Below are positions 8,349 to 26,313 of a stretch of 64,000 nt of DNA, piece by piece (the stretch's first letter is position 1; each line of letters opens with the position of its first letter). Source of the DNA: an uncultured Eubacteriales bacterium (GTDB taxonomy: Bacteria > Bacillota > Clostridia > Christensenellales > Aristaeellaceae); assembly GCA_902793605.1 (NCBI GenBank), contig CADBEB010000002.1:1-64000 (forward strand). Reading direction: 5' to 3'. Both the position numbers and the translations under genes were made by a program. The notes under the pieces were generated by a model, which saw only the letters and a list, made by a program, of their open reading frames with translations, did not search any database and was not told where the DNA came from.

Positions 8349-8424
8349 GCCGATGTGGCTCAGTTGGTAGAGCAGCCGATTCGTAATCAGCAGGTCAGGG
8401 GTTCGAGTCCCCTCATCGGCTCCA
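8349..8424 (+). tRNA. tRNA-Thr, anticodon CGT
   Basis: Complete cloverleaf with acceptor GCCGATG/CATCGGC, D-stem GCTC/GAGC, loop TTCGTAA (anticodon CGT), T-arm AGGGG/CCCCT with TTCGAGT, discriminator T and encoded CCA. The anticodon stem GCCGA/TCAGC contains one C-A mismatch (position 29-41). Confidence 0.93.
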
Positions 8425-8428
8425 GTAT

Positions 8429-8502
8429 CGAGGTGTAGCGCAGTTTGGTAGCGCGTTTGGTTCGGGACCAAAAGGCCGCGGGTTCGAATCCCGCCACTTC
8501 GA
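8429..8502 (+). tRNA. tRNA-Pro, anticodon CGG
   Basis: Cloverleaf with acceptor CGAGGTG/CACTTCG (one G-T pair), anticodon stem TTTGG/CCAAA with loop TTCGGGA (anticodon CGG), and T-arm CGGGTTCGAATCCCG. CCA is not encoded. It starts 4 bp after tRNA-Thr and shares its promoter. Base composition changes immediately downstream, and a 10-bp copy of its 3' end (CCACTTCGAC) recurs near 8766. Confidence 0.93.
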
Positions 8503-9041
8503 CAGGGATTCGGACACGCGGCGGCCGCGGCAAACGAGGGAAGCGTCTCCCCAGTGGGGAGTGCCGAAGGCAAGCGCTCCGAGTTTGTTAGCGCGAAAGG
8601 GAGAACGAAACCCGCTCCAAGGGTTTCGGGCGACCATTGAGCGAACGGTATCGAATCCCCTCCGCAAACTTTATAGTCGCAACTCTCCACAGGAGAGATT
8701 GCTCCTTAAAGTTTGACCTCAGCTCTGATGAAACTTCTGCCATTGGCAGTCATCAGAGCTTCGCCCACTTCGACTCCCCGGGATATTGTAAATCAATGCT
8801 CCTGGGGTTTTGCTTTTCGTGCGGGTTTTCCGCTTTTTTCCGATTTGCAACCTCCCGGGTTGCAGCAGGTCGCCAAGGCACTGGTTTGGCAGGCGGAAAA
8901 GATCACTTCCGGGAATTGCCGGTTGTCCATAAAACAGTTTTCAGCAAGATGATATCAATGGGCTCCCGCACAGGATTGGTTTCAGAGTAATTGAAGAAGA
9001 GCTGGAGAAACGGATGACAAGTCCTGACCGAGGAGCGATGG
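8503..9041. other. Gene-free, strongly folded segment after tRNA-Pro
   Basis: No credible gene is seen in these 539 bp; the small open frames have no ribosome-binding site and run across the hairpins. Inverted repeats are CTCCCC/GGGGAG (about 8549-8563), GAAACCC/GGGTTTC (about 8607-8627), a nested hairpin at 8666-8714, a perfect 11-bp stem with a second inner stem at 8721-8760, and GCAACC/GGTTGC at 8847-8863. Either a structured RNA or the debris of an element inserted at the tRNA gene would fit. Confidence 0.5.
8666..8760. repeat. Two adjacent large hairpins
   Basis: Hairpin 1 (8666-8714) pairs AAACTTTA with TAAAGTTT outside and GCAACTCTCC with GGAGAGATTGC inside, with one bulge. Hairpin 2 (8721-8760) pairs AGCTCTGATGA with TCATCAGAGCT perfectly and has an inner stem CTGCC/GGCAG. 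Neither is followed by a T-run, so they are not ordinary terminators. Confidence 0.6.
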
Positions 9042-9704
9042 TCATTCTCTATAGTGCTCCATCATGGCTTTAAACAACTCCGCTGTGGACGGAGGAGTAA
9101 AGGTAATGGCATTTGCCCCGGCCTGCACCGTTCGGGCAATGTTTTCCTCGGTGTTTCCGCCACTGGCTATGATTGGCACATCAGGGAAATGCTTTCGGAT
9201 ATGCGCGACGACTTCCGGTGTCCTGCCTGCACAGGCAATATTCAGAATAGAAGCACCCGCCTCCAGTCGGGCAGAGATATCCGTATCGATGTGTGTCACC
9301 GTAATAATGACAGGGATATCCACTGCCGCGGACACCGCGATCAGGTTCAGATTGGTGATGGGTGCGTTCAGGATCACACCCATCGCGCCTTGACTCTCCA
9401 CATCTTTGGCCAATCCCACTGTTCTGATTCCCTTGGTTGTTCCGCCTCCGACACCGCAGAATACAGGAATATAGGAAGCCTTAATAATGGCATCGCTGAT
9501 CGCCTGCTGAGGTGTAAAAGGATAGACAGCAAAAACAGCATCCGCGTCACAGTTCCGGATGATGGCGAGATCGGTGGTGAAGACAAGGGTTTTGATTCTG
9601 CGCCCGTTGATGATGATTCCGCTGGCGGAATAACAGGCTTCCGGCATTTTCAGAATGCCATGGCGCAGAGGGCTCTCAATATGGGGGATATCTGCTTTGT
9701 TCAT
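9042..9704 (-). CDS. TIM-barrel protein of unknown activity
   Basis: The 220-aa protein shows a phosphate-binding beta/alpha-barrel pattern: alternating strands, VFCGVGGGTTKG near the middle, IPVIITVTHIDTDIS, and a C-terminal IIASGGNTEENIARTVQAGANAITFTP, which resembles the phosphate-binding loops of HisA/HisF/ThiG/NanE-like barrels. I cannot assign a substrate. Strand and position make it the third gene of a leftward set after the alarmone synthetase and radical SAM genes, but a strong terminator at 9726-9773 separates it from the latter, so expression may be lower or independent. Ribosome-binding site GGGAG precedes the ATG at 9704. Confidence 0.7.
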   Translation of the reverse strand: MNKADIPHIESPLRHGILKMPEACYSASGIIINGRRIKTLVFTTDLAIIRNCDADAVFAVYPFTPQQAISDAIIKASYIPVFCGVGGGTTKGIRTVGLAKDVESQGAMGVILNAPITNLNLIAVSAAVDIPVIITVTHIDTDISARLEAGASILNIACAGRTPEVVAHIRKHFPDVPIIASGGNTEENIARTVQAGANAITFTPPSTAELFKAMMEHYRE

Positions 9705-9725
9705 TCGGATCGACTTCTCCCTTTC

Positions 9726-9773
9726 AAAAACAGCCCCAGGACAGCTGCCATCCGGCAGTATGTTCTGGGGCTG
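9726..9773 (-). terminator. Rho-independent terminator after the first radical SAM gene
   Basis: On the minus strand CAGCCCCAG pairs with CTGGGGCTG around an inner CTGCC/GGCAG stem, followed by TTTTTG. It lies 12 bp past the radical SAM stop codon. Confidence 0.85.
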
Positions 9774-9784
9774 CTACATTTCCA

Positions 9785-11158
9785 TTACTTTGTATTGACT
9801 TCAAGAACGTATTGTTTACGTTCCTCGGGAATTTCGCTCCACAGCTGATCCGCTTTCGGTTTCCAGCAGTCCGCATAATGATCGCATTTGCCACAAAGAT
9901 GCTCAGCGGATTCCGGAGACTGCAGGTCTGTGGATCTGGCACCGGTCTTCTCAATGATGCCCCGGAGTTTTTGCGGATTCTCCAGCATAGGGCAGGGCTG
10001 GAACATGTTTTCATTGAAGGGCTGCCCGTCGTGATAGGCCTGGAAGAGAGGAGACCGGAGCCCTTCCAGAATTGTTTTCTCCCTAATGTTGGAATCCGAG
10101 TAATGCACGAAGACGCAGGGATCCATATCTCCGTTGGCATTGATGTGGAAATAGCGGCGGCCTCCGGCAATGCAGCCTCCCACGAACTCCGCGTCATTCT
10201 GGAAATCCATGGCGAACAGAGGCTTGCGGGTGCGATAATCCCGGATGCGGCGATAGACGGTTTCCCGCTGTTCCGGATTGGGCATCAGTTCAGGCGCGGC
10301 GTCATTACCCACCGGCATGTAGTGGAAGTACCAAACAAAGTATGCGCCTTTGGCAATCATCATGTCATAGTATTCTTCCGATGTGATGGAATCATAGTTG
10401 GCGCTGGTATAGCAGCAGGAAATACCGTAGGCCAGCTTCTTTTCATGCAGAATGTCCATGGCCCGAATTACTTTGGCGAAGACTCCGTCACCGCGCCGGA
10501 AGTCCGTCGCCTCTTCCATGCCTTCCAGGGAAATGGCAGGCACAAAGTTTTTCACCCGGAGCATATCTTCCGCGAACTGTTCATCAATCAGGGTGCCGTT
10601 CGTAAAGCATAGGAAAATGCAGTCGTCATGCTTTTCGCACAGCCGGATCAGGTCGGCTTTGCGGACCAGCGGTTCCCCGCCGGTGTAGATATACATGTAG
10701 ACGCCCAGTTCTTTGCCCTGACGGATAATATCATCAATCTCGTCGTAGGAAAGGTTCAGCCTGTTGCCATATTCCGCGGCCCAGCAGCCGGTGCAGTGCA
10801 AGTTGCAGGCGGAAGTGGGATCCAGCAGAATGGTCCACGGGATGTTGCATCCGTACTTCTCCTTGAGTTCCAGCTGTTTGGGCCAGCCGATCATGTTCTC
10901 GTTGATGAAAAAGTTCACCGCGATGGTTTTAAATACATCCCGGTCTACATCATTGATCAGATGACGGATATAGCCGTAGAACGGATGATCCGGGTTTTCT
11001 ACCGCTTCCCGCACCTGGGCCAGCTGGTGGGGATACATTTTCCCGGCATATTTATCCGCCCAGGACAGCAGGGTTCGCATATGCTTTTCCGGATCCTTGT
11101 ACAGATAGTTGAATGCCTGTTCCAGTCCGAATTTCTTCAGGGTGGTTGAAACGCTCAT
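9785..11158 (-). CDS. Radical SAM protein with SPASM-like C-terminus (paralogue 1)
   Basis: The 457-aa protein has the radical SAM cluster motif CNLHCTGC (C118, C122, C125) after a helical N-terminus of about 105 residues, then YIYTGGEPLVRK (the GGE SAM-binding motif). The C-terminal third has further cysteines (GGCIAGGRRYFHINANGDMDPC; CGKCDHYADC), suggesting extra Fe-S clusters of the SPASM/twitch type. The reaction is unknown. A close paralogue lies at 22753-24168. Start at 11158 follows GGAGG; the open frame upstream lacks a site. It is 112 bp downstream of the small alarmone synthetase on the same strand. Confidence 0.85.
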   Translation of the reverse strand: MSVSTTLKKFGLEQAFNYLYKDPEKHMRTLLSWADKYAGKMYPHQLAQVREAVENPDHPFYGYIRHLINDVDRDVFKTIAVNFFINENMIGWPKQLELKEKYGCNIPWTILLDPTSACNLHCTGCWAAEYGNRLNLSYDEIDDIIRQGKELGVYMYIYTGGEPLVRKADLIRLCEKHDDCIFLCFTNGTLIDEQFAEDMLRVKNFVPAISLEGMEEATDFRRGDGVFAKVIRAMDILHEKKLAYGISCCYTSANYDSITSEEYYDMMIAKGAYFVWYFHYMPVGNDAAPELMPNPEQRETVYRRIRDYRTRKPLFAMDFQNDAEFVGGCIAGGRRYFHINANGDMDPCVFVHYSDSNIREKTILEGLRSPLFQAYHDGQPFNENMFQPCPMLENPQKLRGIIEKTGARSTDLQSPESAEHLCGKCDHYADCWKPKADQLWSEIPEERKQYVLEVNTK

Positions 11159-11270
11159 GCAGACAGCCTCCTTCAGGTTTGATTTCGGCATCAGCATAAG
11201 CGTTTTCGGACAGGGCGTATATAAACAAACGGAGCGATTTATACAAAAACCGTACACTTTGGCCCATTTG

Positions 11271-11966
11271 TCAAGAAACAGTATGATCCACCTGCTTCTG
11301 GACAGCTTCCATGCGCCGGTCCAGCGCATCCCCCATCTCGGCACATTCCTTCAGTTCCTTTTCGATCTCCGGGGAAATGATCACATCTTTCTTATAGCGG
11401 ATCTTATGTTCCAGGCTGGCCCACCAGTCCATGGAAATCGTTCGGAACTGAACCTCCACCTTCATCAGTCTTTTCTGATCATGCAGGAAAATGGGAATCT
11501 GCACAATCAGGTGCAGGCTTCTGTAGCCGTTTTCCTTGGGATTGGCAATATAATCCTTTCTCTTGATCAGCGTTACATCGTCCTGCTTCAGGAAGGCCTC
11601 CGCCAGCATATAAATGTCTGAAGGATAGGAACAGATGACGCGAACTCCTGCCACATCATTCAGATGCTCCTCAATGCTTTCCACCGTCAGCGGAACTTGC
11701 CGGGCGGTCAGCTTGTTCAGAATGCTTTCCGGGGATTTCAGGCGGGTTTTGATGGCTTCGATGGGATTGCGATCATATTGCAAGCTCAGTTCTTCATTGA
11801 GCACGTTGAATTTCGTCTCCACGGTCATCATGGCGCAGCGATAAAACGCCATCAGTTCCCTGTAAGGGAGGGCAACCTGCTGAAGGCGTCCTTTCATGCT
11901 GCCCTGAGACAGACGGGAGATCAGATTCTGTTCCAGCGGGTTCAGTTCATTTCTGTGGAATTCCAT
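11271..11966 (-). CDS. Small alarmone (p)ppGpp synthetase, RelA/SpoT domain only
   Basis: The 231-aa protein consists of the RelA/SpoT nucleotidyltransferase domain with DVAGVRVICSYPSDIY, KENGYRSLHLIV and VEVQFRT, the core synthetase motifs. There is no HD hydrolase, TGS or ACT domain, and the length fits the RelQ/RelP (YjbM/YwaC) class of about 210-260 aa. These enzymes transfer pyrophosphate from ATP to GDP/GTP and are usually controlled by transcription. Transcription here comes from a consensus promoter at 12150-12178 that overlaps the tetR promoter, so the regulator next door may govern alarmone output (inference). Confidence 0.9.
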   Translation of the reverse strand: MEFHRNELNPLEQNLISRLSQGSMKGRLQQVALPYRELMAFYRCAMMTVETKFNVLNEELSLQYDRNPIEAIKTRLKSPESILNKLTARQVPLTVESIEEHLNDVAGVRVICSYPSDIYMLAEAFLKQDDVTLIKRKDYIANPKENGYRSLHLIVQIPIFLHDQKRLMKVEVQFRTISMDWWASLEHKIRYKKDVIISPEIEKELKECAEMGDALDRRMEAVQKQVDHTVS

Positions 11967-12101
11967 ACTGAAGACTCCTTTATTTAGTCGATGGATGGTG
12001 ATGTTCCGGAGTGGTCAGCTTGCCGATATCCGTGTTCTCTTTTTCAACATTCCCGGGATTTTGTGTTGGTTATTCGTCCTCGGGTGCCGGTTTAGTTGAT
12101 T

Positions 12102-12126
12102 AACAGACGAATGATATTCGACTGTT
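12102..12126. promoter_or_regulatory. Near-perfect inverted repeat, probable TetR operator
   Basis: The two 11-bp arms match at 10 of 11 positions around a GAT centre (CGAAT-GAT-ATTCG core, outer AACAG/CTGTT). It ends 2 bp before the -35 of the tetR promoter and lies in the early transcribed region of the leftward alarmone synthetase transcript. Position and symmetry fit autoregulation by the adjacent TetR protein. TTTAGTTG occurs on both sides, at 12091 and 12161. Confidence 0.7.
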
Positions 12127-12128
12127 TA

Positions 12129-12157
12129 TTGATTAGGGACAAAAATGATATTATAAT
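12129..12157 (+). promoter_or_regulatory. tetR promoter
   Basis: TTGATT (12129-12134), 17 bp, TATAAT (12152-12157). Its -10 shares 4 bp with the -10 of the leftward promoter at 12150-12178. Confidence 0.8.
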
Positions 12158-12178
12158 ACGTTTAGTTGGTATTGTCAA
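12150..12178 (-). promoter_or_regulatory. Consensus promoter for the alarmone synthetase and radical SAM genes
   Basis: On the minus strand TTGACA (12178-12173), exactly 17 bp, TATAAT (12155-12150): a perfect sigma-A consensus. It overlaps the tetR promoter, so the two are likely to exclude each other. Confidence 0.8.
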
Positions 12179-12235
12179 CGTACTGTCGATTTTACACGAA
12201 CGAACACGACCCGTTTGATGAGGAGGAAACGAGTC

Positions 12236-12817
12236 ATGAAAAGCAACCAGACCAAGAAAGCGCTGGCGGAAGCGCTGAAACAGCTGCTGACCAGGAAACC
12301 GATCAATAAGATCACGATTAATGATATTACGGAGCAGTGCGGAATCAGCCGCATGACCTTCTACTATCACTTCAAGGATATCTACGATCTGGCGGAATGG
12401 ACGCTGGAAGAAGCAACACAGCAGATCATTGGCGAGAATCGGTACGCGGATAACTGGCAGCAGGGGTTTCTGGATCTGCTGAAAGAAGTGAAAGATAATC
12501 AGAAGCTGTACATGAACGTTTATCGTTCCATGGATCGGGAAGCGATCGAACGGTATCTGCTGAAGAAGGTAGAACCTCTTCTGATGCCTGTGGTGGAAAA
12601 GGAGGCCGCAGGGATGGGCATCAGTCCGGAAGGAAAACGCGTGGTCGCCATCTTCTACACCTATGCGTTTATCGGCGTTGTTCTGGACTGGATCAGCAAG
12701 GGTATGCCCCTGACACCGCAGCAGGTAGTAACACTGACTGCGGCAGTTGTTCAGGGCGATTTCAGGAATTCCCTTCAGAACCTGAAAAATCTGGACATAT
12801 CGCGGTTTAACGCGTAA
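12236..12817 (+). CDS. TetR-family transcriptional regulator (DhaS-like)
   Basis: The 193-aa protein has a standard N-terminal TetR helix-turn-helix (ALAEALKQLLTRKPINKITI, then DITEQCGISRMTFYYHFKDIYDLAEW), with SRMTFYYHF as recognition helix. The C-terminal half is a ligand/dimer domain like those of DhaS-type members and ends in a hydrophobic helix. The start is the ATG at 12236 after GAGGAGGAAAC; an in-frame ATG eight codons earlier overlaps that site. It probably binds the inverted repeat at 12102-12126 and perhaps the dyads at 14346 and 19982. A lipid or acyl-CoA ligand would suit the neighbours, but that is inference. Confidence 0.88.
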   Translation: MKSNQTKKALAEALKQLLTRKPINKITINDITEQCGISRMTFYYHFKDIYDLAEWTLEEATQQIIGENRYADNWQQGFLDLLKEVKDNQKLYMNVYRSMDREAIERYLLKKVEPLLMPVVEKEAAGMGISPEGKRVVAIFYTYAFIGVVLDWISKGMPLTPQQVVTLTAAVVQGDFRNSLQNLKNLDISRFNA

Positions 12818-12828
12818 AGCAAGAAAAG

Positions 12829-12873
12829 GCGCGGCATTGCTCGTGGGTAGAGCACCGCCGCGCTTCTTTTTTT
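12829..12873 (+). terminator. Terminator after tetR
   Basis: Stem GCGCGGC/GCCGCGC with an inner TGCTC/GAGCA stem, followed by TTCTTTTTTT, 11 bp past the tetR stop. Confidence 0.9.
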
Positions 12874-12905
12874 GATGGTGAAGTAATCATTCACTGGAAA
12901 TACTG

Positions 12906-13580
12906 TCAACAGACGAACTTTTCGATGTGCGAAGCAACTTCATCCGCAATGGCTCTGTGTCCATTCTCATTGGGATGAATTCCATCGGCGCACATGAGGT
13001 CTGGAAAATCCAGCTGCTCCAGCATCCAGGCACGTACATTCAAGAAACGGCAGTTTTTTTCGATAGCGATATCCCAAACGGCAATGGCATACCGCTCCTG
13101 CCATCGGCAGATGCTTTCAGGATCATCTTCCAGGTAATGAAGAATGTTTTCACTATTCCGGTTCCGGGAAACCCACTGGAAATATCTGGAACCGATCAGA
13201 GGCAGACAGGGTATCAGAATCGGTTCCAGTTGCCGCTGCCTTGCTTCTTCTACGAAAGTGCCAAGCACTTTGCGAAAGTCTGCAAGGGGAACCTTTCCAT
13301 CATGGAAATGAGCCGGGTCATTGGATACGGCATCCCAATCCAGATCACAGTCATTTCCTCCGAATTGAATTACACAGCTTGAACCCGGTTCAAGCGGCAG
13401 ATTTCTGAAGTCACGAAGCCCATCCAGTACAGTGTGTCCGTGAACAGCGTAATTTCGAATCGGATATCCAAGATGTTTCAGCAATCGGATGCAGCCCGAT
13501 CGGGATACCCGATACTGGTTGTTTTCATCCAGAACGATCCCCTGACTGGCGGAATCGCCAAACATATATATCTCGGACAT
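12906..13580 (-). CDS. SGNH/GDSL-family hydrolase
   Basis: The 224-aa protein carries the SGNH blocks in order: GDSASQG near the N-terminus (nucleophile serine), a central glycine block, FGGNDCD (block III, N) and ADGIHPNENGH (block V Asp-x-x-His). No signal peptide is present, so it should be a cytoplasmic esterase, lipase or carbohydrate esterase. The ATG at 13580 is chosen because GGGTG lies upstream, whereas the in-frame ATG at 13601 is only about 11 bp from the predicted transcription start. It is divergent from the DUF1836 regulator. Confidence 0.85.
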   Translation of the reverse strand: MSEIYMFGDSASQGIVLDENNQYRVSRSGCIRLLKHLGYPIRNYAVHGHTVLDGLRDFRNLPLEPGSSCVIQFGGNDCDLDWDAVSNDPAHFHDGKVPLADFRKVLGTFVEEARQRQLEPILIPCLPLIGSRYFQWVSRNRNSENILHYLEDDPESICRWQERYAIAVWDIAIEKNCRFLNVRAWMLEQLDFPDLMCADGIHPNENGHRAIADEVASHIEKFVC

Positions 13581-13618
13581 TATCGTTTCGCACCCTTTCA
13601 TATCTGGTATTCGAAACT

Positions 13619-13647
13619 ATAATAAATCATACGCTTTACTATGTCAA
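13619..13647 (-). promoter_or_regulatory. Promoter of the SGNH hydrolase gene
   Basis: Minus-strand TTGACA (13647-13642), 17 bp, TATTAT (13624-13619). Its -35 is 10 bp from the -35 of the divergent promoter at 13658, and the two -35 boxes form an inverted repeat TGTCAA/TTGACA. Confidence 0.8.
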
Positions 13648-13657
13648 TAGTTTTCGT

Positions 13658-13686
13658 TTGACAATATCTTGGAATCATGATATCTT
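13658..13686 (+). promoter_or_regulatory. Promoter of the DUF1836 regulator gene
   Basis: TTGACA (13658-13663), 17 bp, TATCTT (13681-13686), back to back with the SGNH hydrolase promoter. Confidence 0.7.
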
Positions 13687-13728
13687 TTGATCAGCTATCA
13701 AATGATTTCCTTTGAGGAGGGATCTTTG

Positions 13729-14196
13729 TTGGAACGAGAGGAAATCATTCGTTCTTTGGAAGGGCTCAGACTGCCGGAATGGGAACAGCTGCCGGATTTT
13801 GGGCTGTATATGGACCAGCTGGTCACTTTTGTCGGGCGTTCTTTTCCGGGAATCAGCGGCAGGCTTGACCTGACACCAAGCATGATAAATAATTATGTGA
13901 AAGCAGGACTGATCGAAAAACCTTCCGGGAAAAAATACAGCAGGAATGCGCTGGCCCAGCTGTTGATGATCTGCTTGCTGAAACTGACCACACCGCAGAA
14001 CATTCTCCGCAGACTGCTGCATCCGGAAGATGGAACGGAGACAAAGACGATGTATCAGACATTCCGGGCGACGCAGGAACGTATGGGCGCAGAAATCAGC
14101 CGTATGAAAGATTCTTCTGCGCTGGTTTGCGCTATGGAGTCATCTTTCCTGCAGCTGGCGCTTCGCCTGTGGGATGATTCCGGCGAAAAGAAGTAA
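13729..14196 (+). CDS. DUF1836 (MerR-like) DNA-binding protein
   Basis: The 155-aa protein matches DUF1836: an N-terminal segment (LPDFGLYMDQLVTFV), then a winged-helix-like stretch LDLTPSMINNYVKAGLIEKP and KKYSRNALAQLLMICLLK. The pattern of SMINNYVKxGLI followed by a basic turn is the MerR-like helix-turn-helix of this family, whose targets are mostly unknown. The start is uncertain: TTG at 13726 or 13729 follows GAGGAGG, and the ATG at 13702 overlaps that site. It lies directly upstream of the acyl ligase operon behind its own terminator, so it is a candidate controller of the shared dyad element. Confidence 0.8.
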   Translation: MEREEIIRSLEGLRLPEWEQLPDFGLYMDQLVTFVGRSFPGISGRLDLTPSMINNYVKAGLIEKPSGKKYSRNALAQLLMICLLKLTTPQNILRRLLHPEDGTETKTMYQTFRATQERMGAEISRMKDSSALVCAMESSFLQLALRLWDDSGEKK

Positions 14197-14246
14197 TGAG
14201 GGCAGTGCCTTTTCCAGAAAACAGGGATTGCCCCATGTTCCCTCTG

Positions 14247-14287
14247 AACACGGTTCTACGTTTAAAAACGCAGCCGTGTTTTTTATT
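14247..14287 (+). terminator. Terminator after the DUF1836 gene
   Basis: AACACGG pairs with CCGTGTT around an inner ACGTT/AACGC stretch, followed by TTTTATT. It isolates the ligase operon from upstream transcription. Confidence 0.85.
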
Positions 14288-14341
14288 TGGAAAAATCGGA
14301 AGACGAAGATTGAACAATTCAATCGAATTGCACATAAATTT

Positions 14342-14400
14342 ATCATTTTCCCCATTCTGTAAGTGGTGAAAACACACGATGCCCGTTATGCTGTAATTGT
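14342..14400 (+). promoter_or_regulatory. Conserved upstream element, copy 1 (before the acyl ligase operon)
   Basis: A 59-bp stretch matches 19978-20036 at 46 of 59 positions without gaps, with TAAGTGGTGAAA identical. Within it 14346-14372 is a dyad: TTTTCCCCATT and AGTGGTGAAAA are complementary at 9 of 11 positions around CTGTA. A plausible -10 TATGCT (14387-14392) places the right arm over the -35 region (TGGTGA, 17-bp spacing), so a bound regulator could block the promoter. The ligase ATG is 33 bp further on. Confidence 0.75.
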
Positions 14401-14433
14401 TGAAGAATCTGCGGAACCAGGGAGGGACTGAAT

Positions 14434-15897
14434 ATGAACTATTTTCTGGGAAATATGCTTCCGGAGGAGCGAAACGCTTTGCCGGATTTACGAACCACGG
14501 CGGCTTTTGTTTCCTGGATTACTGAACGCTATGGAGATCAGCCCGCACTATCCAATGAAAAGGAAAGCGTCACATACCGAGAACTGAGGCAGCGGGTTGC
14601 CGGAAAACGTCATCTGCTGGCCCGAATGGGAATGCCGAACGGCACGAACGTGGGCCTGCTGGATGTAAACAGCGTGGAGGAGGTGGAATGGTTTCTGGCA
14701 GTGACCAGTTATGGTTGCTGTGCGGTGATGCTGCCGCCATCCATGAGTCCGGAAGTACTCCGGAGAGCAGCGGATCATTATGATCTGTCCGCTCTCATTC
14801 AGGGAGATCAATTCGCTTCCAAAACAGAAGGTCTTTCCCTGAAAACCATTTCCATGCATGAAATGGATGATGAAGGTTCGGATCCAAAGGACGTACAGGG
14901 TACGGATCTGGCCGCGATTTTCTTCACCGGTGGAACGACAGGCACGCCCAAAGGGGTGATGCTGAGCCATCAGGCACTGATGCGCGGAGCAAAGAACGGT
15001 ACCTACCGCCGGGGAACGATTTACGGCCAGACCCTGGTAGCAGCTCTGCCCTTTACCCATGTGTTCGGGATGATCTTCAGCATGCTCAGCGGACTGTATT
15101 GTGGATCCCATGTGTGGGTCTGCTCAGAGATGCGCCTGTTATTCCGGGAAATGGGGCGTGTTCGGCCGACCACGATGATTGCCGTGCCCGGAATGGCGGA
15201 ACTGATGCTTAGCGTTGCAAAAGCAAAGGGGATCGAAGCGCTGGGAGGACGCCTGAAGCTGATTATCTGCGGAGCGGCACCTGTGCCGGCGAAACTGAGA
15301 GAGGGATTCGACCCCCTCGGAGTGGAAGTGCTGGCAGGCTACGGTCTGACAGAGACGGCTAACCTCGTCAGCGGCAATCTGGATATGTTTTTGCATCCCG
15401 ATTCTGTCGGAAAACAGTATCCTGATCAGGAATACCGTCTGGTGGAGGGAGAACTGCAGGTCCGCGGGGATATGCTTTTTGACGGCTACTGGAAGGATGA
15501 GGCAGCGACCCAGGCAGCCATGACGCAGGACGGATGGTTCCGGACCGGTGATCTGGCCCGGGTGGATACCGATGGTTTTTTGTACATTATAGGCCGTTCA
15601 AAGAACCTGATCATCCTCAGCAACGGAGAGAATGTTTCCCCGGAGGAGGTGGAGGCCGCCTTCTACCGCAGTCCCTGCGTGCGGGAATGTCTGGTTTCCG
15701 AAACGGCCATCAACGGGAAGCCTGCCATTCTCCTGGAGGTTGTGCCTGCTCCCGGGGTGGATGAAGAGATCGTGATGTCCGTCCTAAAAACCATTCGGGA
15801 GGAGCTGCCGTCGCCTATGCGCCCGGCCAGGATGATCCTGCGGAAGGAAGAGTTCGAAAAGAGCGCAAGCATGAAGATCGTTCGAAAGAAGGGATGA
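14434..15897 (+). CDS. AMP-dependent acyl-CoA/acyl-ACP ligase
   Basis: The 487-aa adenylate-forming enzyme has the P-loop signature FFTGGTTGTPKG (163-174), the GYGLTETANLVS motif, the GWFRTGDLARVD block, and a near-C-terminal lysine in SMKIVRKKG. It activates a carboxylic acid, most likely a fatty acid, as acyl-AMP and passes it to CoA or to an acyl carrier protein. The ACP gene starts directly after its stop codon, so loading of that ACP is the simplest reading. Ribosome-binding site GGGAGGGA precedes the ATG. First gene of a rightward operon behind the conserved element. Confidence 0.9.
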   Translation: MNYFLGNMLPEERNALPDLRTTAAFVSWITERYGDQPALSNEKESVTYRELRQRVAGKRHLLARMGMPNGTNVGLLDVNSVEEVEWFLAVTSYGCCAVMLPPSMSPEVLRRAADHYDLSALIQGDQFASKTEGLSLKTISMHEMDDEGSDPKDVQGTDLAAIFFTGGTTGTPKGVMLSHQALMRGAKNGTYRRGTIYGQTLVAALPFTHVFGMIFSMLSGLYCGSHVWVCSEMRLLFREMGRVRPTTMIAVPGMAELMLSVAKAKGIEALGGRLKLIICGAAPVPAKLREGFDPLGVEVLAGYGLTETANLVSGNLDMFLHPDSVGKQYPDQEYRLVEGELQVRGDMLFDGYWKDEAATQAAMTQDGWFRTGDLARVDTDGFLYIIGRSKNLIILSNGENVSPEEVEAAFYRSPCVRECLVSETAINGKPAILLEVVPAPGVDEEIVMSVLKTIREELPSPMRPARMILRKEEFEKSASMKIVRKKG

Positions 15898-16158
15898 ATG
15901 ATGATGGAAACGCTGAAAAACATTTTCTCGCTTGTCAGACCGGAAATGGATGTGTCCTCCATCACCCGGGATACGCAATTAACGCAGGAGCTTGGGCTGG
16001 ATTCTCTGGATTTTGTCCTGCTGATGATGGAAATCGAGGAAACATATCAGATTCAGTTTTCCGGTATGGAACACTTTGAGACGGTGGGAGATGTATGCGA
16101 TTACATTGCAGAAAGAATCCGGGAGAACAATGAACCGGCAGCTTGCAGTCATCCCTGA
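15898..16158 (+). CDS. Acyl carrier protein
   Basis: The 86-aa protein has the carrier motif LGLDSLDFV with the phosphopantetheine serine at residue 36 and the acidic helix LLMMEIEETYQI behind it. The C-terminal extension is a little longer than that of AcpP. It begins immediately after the ligase stop codon (TGA-ATG), which implies tight translational coupling. Two more in-frame ATGs follow at once, so the exact start could be 15901 or 15904. As a dedicated ACP beside ligase and acyltransferase it probably carries exogenous or modified fatty acids. Confidence 0.9.
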   Translation: MMMETLKNIFSLVRPEMDVSSITRDTQLTQELGLDSLDFVLLMMEIEETYQIQFSGMEHFETVGDVCDYIAERIRENNEPAACSHP

Positions 16159-16173
16159 TCGGATTGCAGAAAC

Positions 16174-17454
16174 ATGATGATGAAAAGCGTGAAAAATAAT
16201 GTGAAGTTGAAGGATCGGCCGGGTTTCGAGACTCTTGGAATGAGAAACCTTTACCGAGCGCTGTATCCGTTCTTTCATTGCAAATGCGAATTTCCGGAAG
16301 AAATCACATGCAGTGATGAACCTACGGTGTTTATCGCAAATCATTACAGCGTTTTTGGCCCGATTTCCTTTATTCTTTCCGTGCCATTTGTCCATTGTGC
16401 CTGGATGAATGAGGATCTTGTTACTCCTGAGAAAACGGAAGGTGCGGTATACCAGGGTGTGAAAGAAGTATTTCCATATCTGAAACCGCGCTTTATCCGG
16501 AAGATCTGCTCCTTTTTAAGCGGACATGTCTGTTCCGTTATGCTGCATTTCGGATATATTCCAATTGACCGGAACGATGCCGGGAAACTGATCGGCACTT
16601 TGCGCAAGAGTGTACAGACACTGCAGGATGGGAACAACATTCTGATTTTCCCGGAAAAGGGGAATCCCGGTTTTTCCCTGACGTCTGTCACGGAGTTTTA
16701 TGAAGGCTTCGCAACCCTGGGAGCCTATTATCAGAGAAAAAACGGGAAAAGGCTGCGCTTTTGTCCGGTTTATATTGATGAGCAGCATCACATCATTCGA
16801 AGCGGTGAGCCGGAATATTATGATTGCACGGAGCGAAACATGCGGGAGGAAAATGAACGGATTTCTCACGCCCTGCATGACCGGATTGCCGAGATGGCTG
16901 CGTGTTCTCACGGGGAGGAAAAGGAACAGAGAACCCCGAAGCGGATCGGACTAATGCATCTGTGCAATGTGCTGCGCATTCTGATGTTGATTCCCCTGCT
17001 CATTGTCATGCACTCCCCGTCAGGCACAGTGACTCTGGCACTTTATCTTCTGTCGCATGTTTTACTGGCGGGGTTCAGTACCGCAGTTGGAACGGTACCC
17101 GCAACCAATCATATTTCATGCATGATTTCTCATTTCATCAGCATTCTGACAGATTTATGCGTGCTCATCCATTTTCGTGCAAACAGGTGGCATGATTTCC
17201 TGACGGTTGGTCTGATCCTGAACGGTCTTGTGTTTCTCATCATGAATATTTATGTGTATCTGAAGGAGCGGAAATGCGCTGGAACCAGCTATTTTGATTC
17301 AGTGTCCGTCAGCATGATCGGATTTGTCAATTTGCTGCTGATCACCAATGTTCGGCTGACCCGGGCGATGCTTCACACAGTACTGTTGTTTTCTGCAATC
17401 TTTTTAACGCTGTCAACGGTTTCCGGAGTGATGTTCAACCGGAGACTGCTGTAA
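16174..17454 (+). CDS. PlsC-like acyltransferase with C-terminal membrane domain
   Basis: The 426-aa protein has an N-terminal acyltransferase domain: NHYSVFGP at about 56-63 in place of NHx4D, an IPIDRND block (motif II) and FPEKGNPGF (motif III). The catalytic aspartate of HX4D is glycine at position 62, as in an EIYGP-type variant I associate with Bacillota, so activity should be tested. Residues 270-426 form about five hydrophobic helices. It could transfer acyl groups from the neighbouring ACP to a glycerolipid. Starts 15 bp after the ACP gene, in the same operon. Confidence 0.75.
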   Translation: MMMKSVKNNVKLKDRPGFETLGMRNLYRALYPFFHCKCEFPEEITCSDEPTVFIANHYSVFGPISFILSVPFVHCAWMNEDLVTPEKTEGAVYQGVKEVFPYLKPRFIRKICSFLSGHVCSVMLHFGYIPIDRNDAGKLIGTLRKSVQTLQDGNNILIFPEKGNPGFSLTSVTEFYEGFATLGAYYQRKNGKRLRFCPVYIDEQHHIIRSGEPEYYDCTERNMREENERISHALHDRIAEMAACSHGEEKEQRTPKRIGLMHLCNVLRILMLIPLLIVMHSPSGTVTLALYLLSHVLLAGFSTAVGTVPATNHISCMISHFISILTDLCVLIHFRANRWHDFLTVGLILNGLVFLIMNIYVYLKERKCAGTSYFDSVSVSMIGFVNLLLITNVRLTRAMLHTVLLFSAIFLTLSTVSGVMFNRRLL

Positions 17455-17538
17455 GCAGTCTTTCGTTGGTGGAGAAAAAAACATGGATGAATCAAGAAGA
17501 GCGGATTTCCGGCAGGTGCGACAGAAGGATGGTGGAAG

Positions 17539-18729
17539 ATGGACAATATTCTGTCCTATATCAAATGGCGAGGGGATTTGACTGTCAGACAAAGCAGATT
17601 CAATGAGGTGGACAACCTGATATTATCCACATTGAGCTATCTGAGCTTTGATGGGATCATCCCGGAAAGTCCCGCTGGAAGTATATCCATCGGACAGGCT
17701 GCTCAAAGGTATTTTAGGCTTCATCCGCTACCGGATGAGCAGGACATCGAAAAAATGAATACAGGATCCGGACGGGAGTGGATGTTTTATCTGATGGCTT
17801 CTTCCCGACGTTTCCGGAATATGCGCCTGTCAAATTATAAGAATATTCTTGATCCGGAGAGTGTGAAACAGTTTACCGCCATGACTATTCACACATCCAG
17901 AAACGACTTGTACATCGCATATCGCGGAACAAACGATACCCTGACAGGCTGGAAAGAGGATTTCCTGCTGGCTTGTCTGCCTGAAGTCGCTTCCCAGGAG
18001 GAAGCTGTGAATTATGCCAGAACAGTAGCGGAACAATATACGCAGAAACGGTTGTTTCTGGGTGGTCATTCAAAGGGCGGTAATCTGGCGGTTTACGCCG
18101 CAGTGAAAGTACCCATGAACATTCAGGATCGGATTCAGACTGTCTGGTCTAATGACGGACCGGGCTATCAGGAGGACTTTATCACATCCGAATCCTATCT
18201 TCGCATGGCAGCGAAAATCCATACGATTGTCCCCAAATCCTCCGTCGTCGGTATGCTGATGGCTCATGATCATCAATACACCATTGTGGACAGCTATCAG
18301 AAGGGACTGCTGCAGCACGACGGGCTGTCCTGGAGGGTCATTGGAAATCAGTTCGTACACTTCCCGGAACTGACCAGGGAAAGCCAGGCGGCAGGGCGTA
18401 GTATACGGACATGGCTGGATACGCACCCGCAGGAGGAACGGCTGGCTTTTGTGAACGCACTGTTCGATGTGCTCAGCGCAACCGGTACACAAAAACTTTC
18501 TGAAATTCGTCGGGATCGGATTAAATCGATGATTGTTTCTCTCCCTTATTATCGGGAACTCCCCAAAGACACGCGGGAGCAGATTCTTCGATTTTTCGTA
18601 CTGCTCAACAGCGTTACTCTACGCCTGAACAATGAAACGGCGATTGAGAAAACTTCCAGAATGATCGGAAAGATTTCCTTTTCCACCCGCAGCGCAGGAC
18701 GAAAAGCGAGAGAAGAAAGAAAACGGTAA
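17539..18729 (+). CDS. DUF2974 (Mbeg1-like) alpha/beta hydrolase
   Basis: The 396-aa protein resembles the DUF2974 lipase-like family. It begins with the typical DNILSYIKWRGDLTV and FNEVDNLILSTLSYLSFD, and has IAYRGTNDTLTGWKEDF and the nucleophile elbow GGHSKGGNLA. The serine of GHSKGG would be catalytic. No signal peptide is seen, so a cytoplasmic lipase/esterase role is likely, fitting the lipid enzymes around it. It lies 84 bp after the acyltransferase gene with no obvious terminator between them. Confidence 0.82.
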   Translation: MDNILSYIKWRGDLTVRQSRFNEVDNLILSTLSYLSFDGIIPESPAGSISIGQAAQRYFRLHPLPDEQDIEKMNTGSGREWMFYLMASSRRFRNMRLSNYKNILDPESVKQFTAMTIHTSRNDLYIAYRGTNDTLTGWKEDFLLACLPEVASQEEAVNYARTVAEQYTQKRLFLGGHSKGGNLAVYAAVKVPMNIQDRIQTVWSNDGPGYQEDFITSESYLRMAAKIHTIVPKSSVVGMLMAHDHQYTIVDSYQKGLLQHDGLSWRVIGNQFVHFPELTRESQAAGRSIRTWLDTHPQEERLAFVNALFDVLSATGTQKLSEIRRDRIKSMIVSLPYYRELPKDTREQILRFFVLLNSVTLRLNNETAIEKTSRMIGKISFSTRSAGRKAREERKR

Positions 18730-18767
18730 GCAGCAGATGAATGTAGCATGATACAGGAGGAGTGAAC

Positions 18768-19943: not shown

Positions 19944-19977
19944 TGTCTTACAAATGCGCTGGAATGTACACATTTTC

Positions 19978-20036
19978 ATCATTTCGCCCTTTCTATAAGT
20001 GGTGAAAGCGAAAAATGCCGCATATGCTGTATTTGT
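19978..20036 (+). promoter_or_regulatory. Conserved upstream element, copy 2 (before oleate hydratase)
   Basis: This matches 14342-14400 at 46 of 59 positions. The dyad corresponds to 19982-20008 and is less symmetric than copy 1. The putative -10 TATGCT is retained. The oleate hydratase ATG is 38 bp downstream. Two copies before two lipid operons argue for one regulator. Confidence 0.75.
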
Positions 20037-20074
20037 CCCGGAACACTTAACGAATTTGCGAAGGAGGAATCAGC

Positions 20075-21853
20075 ATGTATTATTCCAGTGGTAATTATGA
20101 GGCATTTGCACGTCCGGAGAAACCGGAAGGCGTCGATCGGAAAAGCGCCTATATTGTCGGTACCGGACTGGCTGCGCTGACGGCTGCCTGCTATCTGGTG
20201 CGCGATGGACAGATGAAGGGCAAGCGGATTCATATTTTTGAGAAAGATCCGATTCCCGGCGGAGCCTGTGACGGATGGGAATATCCCGGTCTCGGATACG
20301 TGATGCGCGGCGGACGGGAAATGGATAACCATTTCGAGGTTATGTGGGATCTGTTCCGTTCCATTCCTTCCATCCAGACGGAAGGCGTATCCGTACTGGA
20401 TGAGTATTACTGGCTGAACAAGAAGGATCCCAATTTCAGCCTGTGTCGCGCGACCGTCAACCGTGGTCAGGACGCGCATACCGATGGAAAGTTTGCCATC
20501 AGCGACAAAGGCGCGATGGAAATCATGAACCTGTTCTTTACCCCGGATGAGGAACTGTATAACAAGAAGATTACCGATTATTTTGACGACGAGGTGTTGA
20601 ACAGCAATTTCTGGCTGTACTGGCGCACCATGTTCGCCTTTGAAAACTGGCACAGCGCACTGGAAATGAAGCTGTATATCAAGCGGTTCATCCATCATAT
20701 CGGAGGATTGCCGGATTTCAAGGCTCTTCGCTTCACAAAGTATAATCAGTATGAATCCATGATTCTGCCCATGATCAAATATCTCGAGAGCCATGACGTG
20801 CAGTTCCATTACAACACAAAGGTTGTCAATGTTCAGTTTGATATCCTTGCCGACGGAAAGAAATACGCCACCAGTATCGAGGTGATGCACGAGGGAGAAA
20901 AGGACTATGTCATGCTGACGGACGATGACCTGGTGTTTATCACCAACGGCGGATGCGTGGAGAATTCCACCATGGGCAGCCAGAACAAACCCGCGGAATT
21001 CAATCCGGAGATCAGGCCCGGAGGCGGCTGGGATATGTGGCGTCGGATTGCCGCGCAGGATCCCTCTTTTGGTCACCCGGACAAGTTCTGCTTTGACCCG
21101 GAACAGACCAACTGGATGAGTGCCACGGTAACCACCCTGGACTACCGCATCATTCCCTATATTGAAAAGATCTGTAAGCGGGACCCCTTCAGCGGAGGCG
21201 TGGTGACCGGGGGGATTGTGACGGTAAAGGATTCAGGATGGCTTATGAGCTGGACGATCAACCGGCAGCCTCAGTTCCGCAATCAGCCGAAGGATCAGTG
21301 CCTGGTGTGGGTGTACGGACTGTTTACAGACAAGGACGGAGATTTCATCAGGAAGCCCATGCGGGAATGTACCGGGAAGGAAATCTGCATGGAATGGCTG
21401 TATCATCTGGGCGTGCCGGAGAGCGATATCCCGCGCATGGCGGAGGAAAGCGCCAACACCGTGCCGGTGATGATGCCATATATTACCGCGTTCTTTATGC
21501 CCCGCGGAAAGGGAGACCGGCCTGATGTGGTGCCGGAAGGGGCTGTGAACTTCGCTTTCCTGGGGCAGTTTGCCGAGACGAAACGGGATACCATCTTTAC
21601 GACGGAGTATTCCATGCGGACCGGTATGGAAGCGGTCTATACCCTGCTGAACATCGATCGGGGCGTGCCGGAAGTCTGGGGAAGTACCTATGACATCCGC
21701 GATCTGCTGAATGCCAGCGTGAAGCTCCGGGATGGCCGTCCGCTGACAGATATGAAACTGAACCTGATCGACAGAACCGCGATTCACGAGCTTCTGAAGC
21801 GCGTGCACGGAACGGATATTGAAAAACTGCTGAAGGATTATCAGGTCATCTGA
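20075..21853 (+). CDS. ohyA: Oleate hydratase (FAD-dependent)
   Basis: The 592-aa protein is full length for the family (about 590). It has an FAD/Rossmann motif YIVGTGLAALTAACYL (27-42), the family hallmark MRGGREMDNHFEVMWDLF with the catalytic glutamate at residue 82, and the FWLYWRTMFAFENWHSALE stretch. Oleate hydratase adds water to the cis-9 double bond of free oleic, palmitoleic or linoleic acid, giving 10-hydroxy acids; it is widely linked to detoxifying host unsaturated fatty acids. A strong AAGGAGG precedes the ATG. It heads the second operon behind element copy 2. Confidence 0.95.
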   Translation: MYYSSGNYEAFARPEKPEGVDRKSAYIVGTGLAALTAACYLVRDGQMKGKRIHIFEKDPIPGGACDGWEYPGLGYVMRGGREMDNHFEVMWDLFRSIPSIQTEGVSVLDEYYWLNKKDPNFSLCRATVNRGQDAHTDGKFAISDKGAMEIMNLFFTPDEELYNKKITDYFDDEVLNSNFWLYWRTMFAFENWHSALEMKLYIKRFIHHIGGLPDFKALRFTKYNQYESMILPMIKYLESHDVQFHYNTKVVNVQFDILADGKKYATSIEVMHEGEKDYVMLTDDDLVFITNGGCVENSTMGSQNKPAEFNPEIRPGGGWDMWRRIAAQDPSFGHPDKFCFDPEQTNWMSATVTTLDYRIIPYIEKICKRDPFSGGVVTGGIVTVKDSGWLMSWTINRQPQFRNQPKDQCLVWVYGLFTDKDGDFIRKPMRECTGKEICMEWLYHLGVPESDIPRMAEESANTVPVMMPYITAFFMPRGKGDRPDVVPEGAVNFAFLGQFAETKRDTIFTTEYSMRTGMEAVYTLLNIDRGVPEVWGSTYDIRDLLNASVKLRDGRPLTDMKLNLIDRTAIHELLKRVHGTDIEKLLKDYQVI

Positions 21854-21915
21854 TTGCCGCGGTATGCCTGCTGCAATGAACAGAAGCAAGATCTTCAACA
21901 AGGAGTGTGGAATCC

Positions 21916-22698: not shown

Positions 22699-22752
22699 GA
22701 CTTCCGGGAACTGAATGAAAAATAAATGATTGAAAGAAAAGGAGTGCAGCCC

Positions 22753-24168
22753 ATGAATCTTTCGGAGAAACTGAAATCCATTGGTGTAAAACAGGTGCTC
22801 AAATATGTGGATAAGGATTTTGAGCATAACGCGGTGAAAGTTTGCGACTGGCTGATTGACCATGATAAGGATGGCGGCGTGAAAAACGAAGCCACCATGG
22901 TGCGGAATGTGCTGCAGGATCCGGACAGCAACTGGTATCAGCTGGTGAAGAGCCTGTACACGGAAATTGATGACGAACAGCGGAAAAGACTCCTTGAGAA
23001 TTTTGTGATCAATGCCTGCCTGATCGGCACACCCACCGGTTTTGAAAACAGTGTCCGGTATGACTGCAATGTGCCCTGGGCGATTCTGATGGATCCCACA
23101 TCCGGCTGCAATCTGCACTGCACAGGCTGCTGGGCTGCGGAATATGGAAACAAGCTGAACCTGACACTGGAGGAACTTGACAGCATCATCGCGCAGGCGG
23201 AGGACCTGGGATGTTACTTCTTTATCTACTCCGGCGGGGAACCGCTCGTACGGAAAAAGGATATCATCACCCTTTGCGAACGTCATCCGGAAGCGGCCTT
23301 CCTTTCCTTTACCAACGGCACCCTGATCGATGAAGTGTTCGCGGATGAAATGCTACGGGTGAAGAACTTTGTTCCTGCCATCTCCATCGAGGGCTTTGAG
23401 GAGGAGACGGATTTCCGGCGCGGAAAAGGAACCTATGCTTCCGTTGTGCGGGCCATGAATCTGCTGAAGGAACGAAAACTGCTTTTCGGAGCGAGCTGCT
23501 GTTACACGTCAAAGAATGTGGAAGTGATTGGGAGCGAAGCATATTTTGACAGCTTGATTGATCTGGGCGCAAAGTTCATGTGGCTTTTCACCTACATGCC
23601 GGTTGGCGTGGACGCGGTGCCGGAGCTGATGGCAAGCAGCGAGCAGCGGGAGTATATGTACCATTTTGTCCGGGCTATGCGGGATAAAAAGCCCCTCTTC
23701 ACCATGGATTTCTGGAACGATGGGGAATACGCGGACGGATGCATCGCCGGAGGACGGCGCTATCTGCATATCAACGCCAACGGAGATGTGGAGCCCTGCG
23801 CCTTCATCCATTACAGCGACAGCAATATCCGGGAAAAAAGCCTGCTGGAGGCGCTGCAGTCTCCGCTATTCATGGCCTATCACCGGGGACAGCCCTTTAA
23901 TGAGAATATGCTCCGCCCCTGCCCGCTGCTGGACAATCAGGGGAAACTGGCGGAAATGGTAGATGCGTCCGGAGCTCATTCCACGGATCTTCAGAATCCG
24001 GAGGACGTGCATGAACTCTGTGCCAAGTGCAAAGCTGCTGCTGACTGCTGGCAGGTCACCAGTCAGGAACTCTGGGAGGAGGACCATGGACCTGAAAGGT
24101 GGGAGGCCAAAAAAGTCAAAATCGCTGAACGGAATCAGAAATTGCAGAATAAGGTCAGGCGTGCCTGA
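22753..24168 (+). CDS. Radical SAM protein with SPASM-like C-terminus (paralogue 2)
   Basis: The 471-aa protein shares motifs and overall layout with the protein at 9785-11158: CNLHCTGCWAAEYGN (C119, C123, C126), FIYSGGEPLVRKKDI, FTNGTLIDE, GGCIAGGRRYLHINANGD, and the closing CAKCKAAADCW. The N-terminal helical region differs more (RYDCNVPWA replaces KYGCNIPWT). The reaction is unknown; radical SAM enzymes in lipid loci can form C-C or ether-type links, but nothing here proves that. The ATG at 22753 lies after AAAAGGAGTG. It follows the SAM synthetase homologue in the oleate hydratase operon. Confidence 0.85.
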   Translation: MNLSEKLKSIGVKQVLKYVDKDFEHNAVKVCDWLIDHDKDGGVKNEATMVRNVLQDPDSNWYQLVKSLYTEIDDEQRKRLLENFVINACLIGTPTGFENSVRYDCNVPWAILMDPTSGCNLHCTGCWAAEYGNKLNLTLEELDSIIAQAEDLGCYFFIYSGGEPLVRKKDIITLCERHPEAAFLSFTNGTLIDEVFADEMLRVKNFVPAISIEGFEEETDFRRGKGTYASVVRAMNLLKERKLLFGASCCYTSKNVEVIGSEAYFDSLIDLGAKFMWLFTYMPVGVDAVPELMASSEQREYMYHFVRAMRDKKPLFTMDFWNDGEYADGCIAGGRRYLHINANGDVEPCAFIHYSDSNIREKSLLEALQSPLFMAYHRGQPFNENMLRPCPLLDNQGKLAEMVDASGAHSTDLQNPEDVHELCAKCKAAADCWQVTSQELWEEDHGPERWEAKKVKIAERNQKLQNKVRRA

Positions 24169-24234
24169 AAGGAAGGATCTCTGAAAGGAACAAGGATCCG
24201 ACGGCAGAGCCATCGCGAATAATGAGAGGAGAAT

Positions 24235-24573
24235 ATGAAAATGGCAATATTGAATCGAAGTATCAGAAACATGGTGCTTGCGGGAATCGGTGCGGCAGCG
24301 CTCGCACATGAGGAAAGCAGCGATCTGCTTCATCATCTGGTTGAAAAAGGTGAGGCAATTGTCACAAACAGTGGGATCCAAAATGAGCTGCTTCATCATG
24401 ATCCGGATGACATGAAAGAAACAGAAACGCCTGTGGATGAAAGCGCATGGCTGGATACACTCTGCAGGATGACACCCGATCAGCTGGGTGTCTTGAAGGA
24501 AGCGATTCATTCGGTCGAATGGGCCAGGAACAACAATGCTGGCGATGAAAATGCGGACGAGGAAGAAGGATAA
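24235..24573 (+). CDS. Phasin-like small protein
   Basis: The 112-aa protein starts with a hydrophobic helix followed by a GIGAAALAHEESSDLLHHLVEKGE stretch, which resembles the phasin-like family (VLAGIGAAALxxEKxxELLDELVKKGE) associated with lipid or polyhydroxyalkanoate granules and often found beside UbiB kinases in Clostridia. The C-terminus is acidic (DENADEEEG). No PHA synthase is in the window, so a storage-granule role is unproven. It ends 5 bp before the kinase gene and is certainly co-translated with it. Confidence 0.7.
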   Translation: MKMAILNRSIRNMVLAGIGAAALAHEESSDLLHHLVEKGEAIVTNSGIQNELLHHDPDDMKETETPVDESAWLDTLCRMTPDQLGVLKEAIHSVEWARNNNAGDENADEEEG

Positions 24574-24578
24574 GAAGT

Positions 24579-26144: not shown

Positions 26145-26256
26145 GATTCATTCTGATTACAATAAAATATTACAGGGTAACTTCGATGGCTCTTTCATTA
26201 CCCAGCTGGCAACTTGAACCCTTGCGATTCTCGTAGTATTACGGAGCTCAGTTCGG

Positions 26257-26285
26257 TTGTTTTATGGTCAGATCCAGAGTATAAT
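26257..26285 (+). promoter_or_regulatory. Promoter of the sigma-like gene
   Basis: TTGTTT (26257-26262), 17 bp, TATAAT (26280-26285), 28 bp before the TTG start. Confidence 0.65.
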
Positions 26286-26313
26286 ACAGGCATTCGAACG
26301 GGAGGTGATTGTA

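Follow-up and report, generated by a model that had tools for sequence, protein, structure and literature searches.

Overlapping divergent promoters between a small alarmone synthetase gene and a tetR gene derive from a TetR-associated cassette and lie in a fatty-acid island

The window analyzed here, meaning the whole 64,000-nucleotide stretch of contig CADBEB010000002.1 from an uncultured Eubacteriales bacterium, carries a gene for a small alarmone synthetase (SAS) that is divergent from a gene for a TetR-family regulator (TetR1), with a gap of 269 bp between the two (Table 1). The pair belongs to a fatty-acid island. A radical SAM/SPASM gene (rSAM1) and a gene for a weakly aldolase-like protein follow SAS, and the stretch from 14.4 to 26 kb holds genes for an acyl ligase, an ACP, an acyltransferase, an oleate hydratase, a protein with an S-AdoMet-synthetase N-domain, a second radical SAM protein (rSAM2) and an ABC1/UbiB-type kinase. 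A search at E<=1e-25 found no TetR1 in the 10 other genus members sampled, and only 4 of 45 genomes of the genus have oleate hydratase, one of these just as a 36%-identical copy; the island is therefore accessory.

Table 1. Positions of the genes, promoters and candidate regulatory elements in the window.
Feature	Position	Strand	Details
Weakly aldolase-like protein, downstream of rSAM1	9042..9704	-	
rSAM1, radical SAM/SPASM gene, downstream of SAS	9785..11158	-	
Tandem array with -10 before rSAM1, in the SAS-rSAM1 gap	11193..11270	-	
SAS, small alarmone synthetase, RelP/YwaC-like	11271..11966	-	231 aa
Flank kept from homologous cassettes	12095..12110	+	GTTGATTAACAGACGA; family form GTTGATTAACARACGA
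Inverted repeat (palindrome)	12099..12129	.	14-bp arms, 2 mismatches; core 12103-12125
tetR promoter	12129..12157	+	-35 TTGATT 12129-12134, spacer 17, -10 TATAAT 12152-12157; 10/12
SAS promoter	12150..12178	-	-35 TTGACA 12178-12173, spacer 17, -10 TATAAT 12155-12150; 12/12
Imperfect GTTGA-N5-TCAAC repeat around the SAS -35	12165..12179	.	GTTGGTATTGTCAAC; retained from the cassette family (L163: GTTGATATTGTCAAC)
TetR1, TetR_N + TetR_C_8, DhaS/DHSK_reg-like	12236..12817	+	193 aa
Terminator-like hairpin then T run, 3' of tetR	12829..12863	+	
Tandem array with -10 before the AMP-ligase operon	14315..14392	+	exact match
AMP-binding (acyl) ligase	14434..15897	+	
ACP, after the acyl ligase	15898-16158		
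Acyltransferase, after the ACP	16174-17454		
Tandem array with -10 before oleate hydratase	19951..20028	+	1 mismatch
Oleate hydratase	20075..21853	+	NF010584, 937 bits, cut-off 567
rSAM2, second radical SAM/SPASM gene	22726..24168	+	56% to rSAM1

The SAS product contains the RelA_SpoT synthetase domain (PF04607, 105.8 bits) as its only domain, without a hydrolase domain. Its best solved match is YwaC (6fgk; 187 bits, residues 33-227), and its likeness to RelP/YwaC (SAS2) lies in a synthetase region that aligned to YwaC throughout; against the YjbM equivalog it scored 154, below the cut-off of 320. The genome encodes a second SAS elsewhere, which is 54% identical. The window gene differs from RelP/YwaC in its setting, a fatty-acid island behind a TetR-associated promoter. 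Control of small alarmone synthetases is largely transcriptional, and to our knowledge few of their regulators are known; our literature search returned no paper on a small alarmone synthetase in a divergent or fatty-acid context. Inspecting the fetched flanks of 102 loci of the SAS clade revealed linkage to radical SAM genes (17), TetR genes (12), a UbiB-type gene (5) and oleate hydratase (3), in varying orders: L167 keeps SAS-rSAM1, L124 reads SAS-TetR-rSAM1, and L013 reads SAS-TetR-oleate hydratase. The linked SAS genes are not one clade, with 8 changes on the tree against a shuffled mean of 15.9; short or interrupted matches and hand-excluded partial loci had been dropped from this tree beforehand. 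A recurrent divergent pairing of SAS with tetR was considered and rejected: it was not found, and what recurs is the linkage of SAS, rSAM and TetR in other orders.

TetR1 combines a TetR_C_8 domain (PF14278, 95.7 bits) with a TetR_N domain (PF00440, 31.2 bits). In both sequence and fold, its nearest solved relatives are DHSK_reg (4mk6) and the activator DhaS (2iu5), and its score of 101.1 bits against the curated DhaS equivalog TIGR02366 stays below the cut-off of 129. The helix region is identical or nearly so across 16 aligned sequences. When wide flanks were inspected, the recurrent neighbor of TetR1 relatives was oleate hydratase, often together with an acyl ligase and an ACP; it was present in 9 of 18 stretches, L107 and L112 among them, and beside four more relatives, including L163 and L013. 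For the other nine of the 18, the stretch that was fetched contained no convincing oleate hydratase. An order-level search at E<=1e-48 recovered the TetR in 4 of 396 genomes, its own included, and no SAS neighbor was seen within the fetched stretches. Overall, judged by gene content, the fatty-acid theme of the TetR1 and SAS neighborhoods is strong, and the exact divergent arrangement of SAS and tetR is not shared.

The original prediction had proposed overlapping divergent promoters between the two genes, and the boxes, the spacers, their positions and the 4 bp common to both -10 boxes (12152-12155) are all present. The SAS promoter is the sole perfect 12/12 promoter at spacing 17 within the 64-kb window. 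Chance levels were estimated by shuffling the 269-bp gap with a first-order Markov model: divergent promoters that both score at least 10/12 and overlap in their -10 boxes arose in 12 of 20,000 shuffles, and a perfect 12/12 promoter in 5 of 20,000. The predicted inverted repeat 2 bp from the tetR -35 could also be located; in its 11-bp form, AACAGACGAAT-gat-ATTCGACTGTT, it covers 12102-12126, with one mismatch between its 11-bp arms. A repeat at least as good arose in 202 of 10,000 shuffles (~2%), and the window contains 12 inverted repeats of equal quality. The promoter pair is well beyond chance, and the inverted repeat only moderately so. In classical tetR/tetA systems, divergent promoters and operator-like repeats likewise lie between regulator and target. 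The window gap differs from these in the 4-bp overlap of its -10 boxes, in having a nucleotide-second-messenger synthetase as target and in the uncertainty about its cognate regulator.

The palindrome lies just upstream of the tetR -35. In the inferred SAS transcript it takes up positions +14 to +44 and would also form a hairpin near +14. The fold of the inferred leader is only marginally better than that of shuffles (z -1.48), and an Rfam search gave no match for the leader or anywhere across 9000-26500. No second copy of the 23-bp core exists in the genome at up to 3 mismatches; the core is also absent upstream of orthologous tetR genes, and we therefore rejected the palindrome as an operator of the whole island. 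In the relative L124 (4785-4830), an inverted repeat with 17-bp arms, unrelated in sequence to the window palindrome, lies at a similar place, near +14 of that relative's inferred SAS transcript.

Beyond what the original prediction had noticed, the whole SAS/tetR gap proved to be homologous to a promoter region on contig C36 of the same genome, where TetR2, a TetR_C_8 paralogue, is divergent from an MMPL-family gene (the MMPL domain was demonstrated on the L259 homologue). A local alignment of the two gaps scored 45, which none of 2000 shuffles reached. Both places have TTGATT-17-TATAAT and TTGAC-17-TATAAT sharing ATTATAAT without mismatches, the C36 copy (22112-22161) having 0 mismatches to TTGATT-N15-ATTATAAT-N16-GTCAA. 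At up to 2 mismatches, this pattern occurred in 221 of 400 relatives and, by our count, in 28 of 45 genus rows. Its backward control was nonzero in 11 of 400 rows, again by our count; this control destroys the promoter consensus, so the ratio of the two overstates the enrichment. The claim of homology rests not on this ratio but on the gap alignment, the comparison of cassettes and a test of conserved columns.

Of the 30 cassette loci fetched, 21 have a TetR2-like gene on one side and an MMPL gene on the other, 2 lie beside an MMPL gene only, 2 have the arrangement of the window (the window itself and G584) and 5 are other. In the usual form of the cassette in this genus, the TetR2 gene is on the TTGAC side and the MMPL transporter gene on the TTGATT side. 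We derived a consensus from the 21 reference cassettes, leaving out L117, L120 and the window, and counted matches over 66 conserved columns that the search pattern does not fix. The window matches 45 of these, and 5000 shuffles gave a mean of 17.7 and a maximum of 33, with the window included in the alignment and the shuffles not realigned. On the same columns, the reference cassettes average 61.9, L117 reaches 39 and L120 reaches 36. In both L117 and L120 the cassette is bordered by a TetR2-like gene and a TetR1-like gene, and the side taken by TetR1 matches that in the window. Some copies are located within oleate hydratase islands. In the oleate hydratase genomes of L163 and L124, the cassette lies beside an MMPL gene on the same contig as island genes.

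In the window, SAS takes the slot of TetR2 and the island's TetR1 that of the MMPL gene, and the flanking genes are not TetR2 and MMPL. The geometry of both promoters is kept, as are the flank and the repeat around the SAS -35 given in Table 1. The usual central repeat of the cassette (about ATAATCA-N3-TGATTAT) is broken; its place reads GATATTCGA-CTGTTTAT, and here another repeat, the palindrome, has formed. From these comparisons we read the gap as a TetR2-MMPL cassette recruited to new client genes with a changed operator, its core being the 77 bp from 12102 to 12178. The divergent SAS-tetR arrangement was found in this species only, in the window and in G584/RUG10998, which are 99.9% identical over 15.9 kb; in the rumen MAG record RUG10998 (L004) the gap itself is identical. 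The palindrome consequently has no phylogenetic footprint.

On balance, we lean towards a recruited TetR-type switch on the SAS gene, in which a ligand of the fatty-acid type would alter SAS output through a TetR dimer on the palindrome. The diverged cassette copy would drive SAS from its TetR2 side and TetR1 from the other, and the shared -10 boxes would admit one polymerase at a time. In the usual cassette, TetR2 would regulate itself; in the window, a TetR-family dimer on the palindrome would block the strong SAS promoter, and a change in ligand level would change SAS output and, with it, (p)ppGpp. The ligand is likely a long-chain fatty acid or a derivative, given that genes for oleate hydratase, acyl ligase and ACP accompany the TetR1 orthologues. 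TetR1 acting in cis is a somewhat more likely regulator than TetR2 supplied from contig C36, in view of the loss of the usual TetR2 repeat and of a half-site coincidence, described below, that fits TetR1. The proposed regulation is plausible and is confined to one species. A broader version is possible, though not probable: a fatty-acid-sensing TetR switch, taken from an efflux-pump cassette and given a new operator, would directly set SAS transcription, unsaturated fatty acids would change (p)ppGpp without starvation, and related bacteria would make the same link through the array of the oleate hydratase regulon or through gene order.

The original prediction went as far as a simple switch that ties (p)ppGpp synthesis to a TetR ligand. 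In favor of this idea, the promoters are part of a divergent cassette that is conserved and associated with TetR genes, SAS has a synthetase region of the RelP/YwaC type and the divergent gene does encode a TetR. A simple repressor/inducer design is nevertheless not established. The palindrome lacks a footprint, the candidate operator of the island is a different one and is absent from the gap, and DhaS and FasR, the functionally characterized relatives of the adjacent TetR, are activators. Since the cassette is usually regulated by TetR2, binding here does not have to be by the adjacent TetR. The activator role of these relatives also counts against the reading we prefer, as do the roughly 2% of shuffles that give a palindrome this good and the presence of the divergent SAS-tetR pair in two near-identical genomes only, which leaves no way to measure selection on this version.

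A known counterpart of the cassette family is FarR/FarE of S. aureus and vaginal lactobacilli, the named example of a TetR/MMPL pair, with FarE as an MMPL-type fatty-acid efflux pump. As in the TetR2-MMPL cassettes, a TetR gene here stands beside an MMPL-type transporter gene. The window copy differs in that it would drive SAS and TetR1 and has no adjoining efflux pump, and the MMPL genes were compared at family level. The response of lactobacilli to oleate includes joint induction of oleate hydratase, farE and the neighboring tetR (PMC11429459).

The island contains another candidate operator, the tandem CA-N12-TG array. After near-duplicate upstream regions had been removed (125 to 112), the CA-N12-TG dyad was enriched upstream of oleate hydratase, acyl ligase, radical SAM and SAS genes, in 21 of 71 nonredundant regions against 6.2 expected (z 6.4). 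Other spacings reached a z of at most 3.2, and upstream of TetR genes the dyad was not enriched (2 of 20). The dyads repeat at 29 bp in 14 of the 71 regions, against 0.8 expected (z 12.6). We rejected this period as a pure signal, as part of it stems from terminator hairpins centered on the linker; z fell to 4.2 after hairpin masking, which also hid real sites. A tandem array with a -10 box at a fixed distance (N22) gave 25 matches in 20 genomes, against one in the reversed control. By our own reading, such islands account for 20 of the 25; of the rest, 3 are inside coding sequence, 1 precedes a gene for a membrane protein of a kind also present in SAS/rSAM clusters and 1 is beside another TetR_C_8 gene. 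This genome has exactly three such arrays, all in the island and none in the SAS/tetR gap. The array looks like the activator site of a DhaS/FasR-like TetR and is a candidate operator on sequence grounds. The operator of DhaS has the spacing GGACA-N12-TGTCC; our literature search for it returned no matching paper.

Examining individual promoters, we found that the window SAS promoter is without an array site (p 0.82). The tetR promoter has only the right half-site CTGTTTAT, which is the right arm of the palindrome, at the proper spacing (p 0.013). Only one of 12 SAS upstream regions reached p<=0.02. Upstream of SAS, L124 has one exact dyad, followed at N22 by a -10, outside the scored region (whose p was 0.84), and L167 has a one-mismatch dyad with a -10, a score that 0 of 300 shuffles matched. 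Because of these two sites, SAS may belong to the array regulon in relatives. If TetR1 reads the arrays, it need not bind the window's SAS promoter, because they are absent there. The array also occurs at L107, L109, L112, L163 and others. In the tetR-rSAM1 gap of L112 (8985-9175), a single array is flanked on each side by -10 boxes at N22-N23, as though shared by two divergent promoters. At L229 (G584:C3:7401-7478), far from the island, the same array separates a divergent TetR_C_8 gene from a nitroreductase-like gene.

These arrays give rise to a rival account that we regard as possible, though not probable. TetR1 would be a DhaS/FasR-like activator whose binding to dyads immediately 5' of weak -35 boxes turns on the genes for acyl ligase, oleate hydratase and rSAM1. 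It would also bind the right arm CTGTTTAT (12122-12129, at the regulon distance from the tetR -10), activate tetR and act as a roadblock to SAS, so that SAS would run opposite to the lipid genes. The dyad enrichment and 29-bp period before lipid-island genes fit this account, as do the 25 matches against one control, with all three of this genome in the island, and the L229 match that adjoins another TetR_C_8 gene. The tetR promoter scores 18.5, as high as oleate hydratase and rSAM1 in the window, but the -10 box adds to this composite score and the left half-site is missing. Binding of the dyads by TetR1 is a prediction from sequence, and the terminator hairpins yield part of the tandem signal. 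TetR1 resembles DhaS, DHSK_reg and FasR in sequence and fold, and FasR of pneumococcus, a DHSK_reg-like TetR, controls fatty-acid genes: it is needed for fabM and fakB3 expression, which its loss lowers, and its authors report finding no binding site (PMC12647141). TetR1 differs in falling under the DhaS cut-off and in having oleate hydratase and acyl ligase, rather than dihydroxyacetone kinase, as neighbors.

It is unlikely that TetR2, the MMPL-associated paralogue on C36, represses the SAS promoter in trans through the retained GTTGA-N5-(T/C)CAAC and GTTGATTAAC, with TetR1 a mere passenger at that promoter. The homology of the gap, its retained flanks and the presence of TetR2 in the same genome speak for such control; in the window, however, both the central repeat and the one at the TTGATT -35 have decayed, and TetR2 binding may be lost because the usual central repeat is broken. 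We give as little credence to the view that overlap and palindrome are leftovers, with SAS and tetR constitutive from inherited promoters and the palindrome a 5' hairpin of the SAS transcript or nothing: its ~2% chance level, its fold at about +14 and the similarly placed repeat of L124 suit this view, but a new near-perfect repeat exactly at the place of the cassette operator is unexpected for pure decay, and the leader neither folds markedly nor matches Rfam.

If the recruited switch that we prefer operates, fatty-acid exposure may be tied to a stress response via SAS. The locus would then provide a testable route by which membrane or fatty-acid stress could act on alarmone synthesis in rumen bacteria exposed to toxic unsaturated fatty acids. 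The gap would also exemplify a promoter cassette that changes its client genes, and the arrays offer a concrete candidate operator for DhaS/FasR-like TetR regulators.

The island has several further features. Its left end adjoins tRNA-Thr and tRNA-Pro genes (8349-8503), and GC drops from about 0.61 to 0.50 across 6-12 kb; the tRNA neighbors and the GC fall are compatible with an acquired island. The two radical SAM/SPASM paralogues flank it, and their substrate is possibly a lipid; related genes recur beside SAS, TetR and DegV-like genes in Peptoniphilus and others. Between oleate hydratase and the second radical SAM gene, a 263-aa protein (21907-22698) has the N-terminal S-AdoMet synthetase domain only, and a 382-aa protein after rSAM in L039 has what we take to be the appearance of MetK. 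The names DegV, DUF308, DedA, phasin-like and nitroreductase are likewise presumptive labels rather than results of a family search. Another divergent pair, a GDSL hydrolase gene (12906-13601, minus strand) and a DUF1836 gene (13687-14196, plus strand), has strong facing promoters at 13619-13647 (minus) and 13658-13686 (plus), and this pair is conserved beside the oleate hydratase operon in L107.
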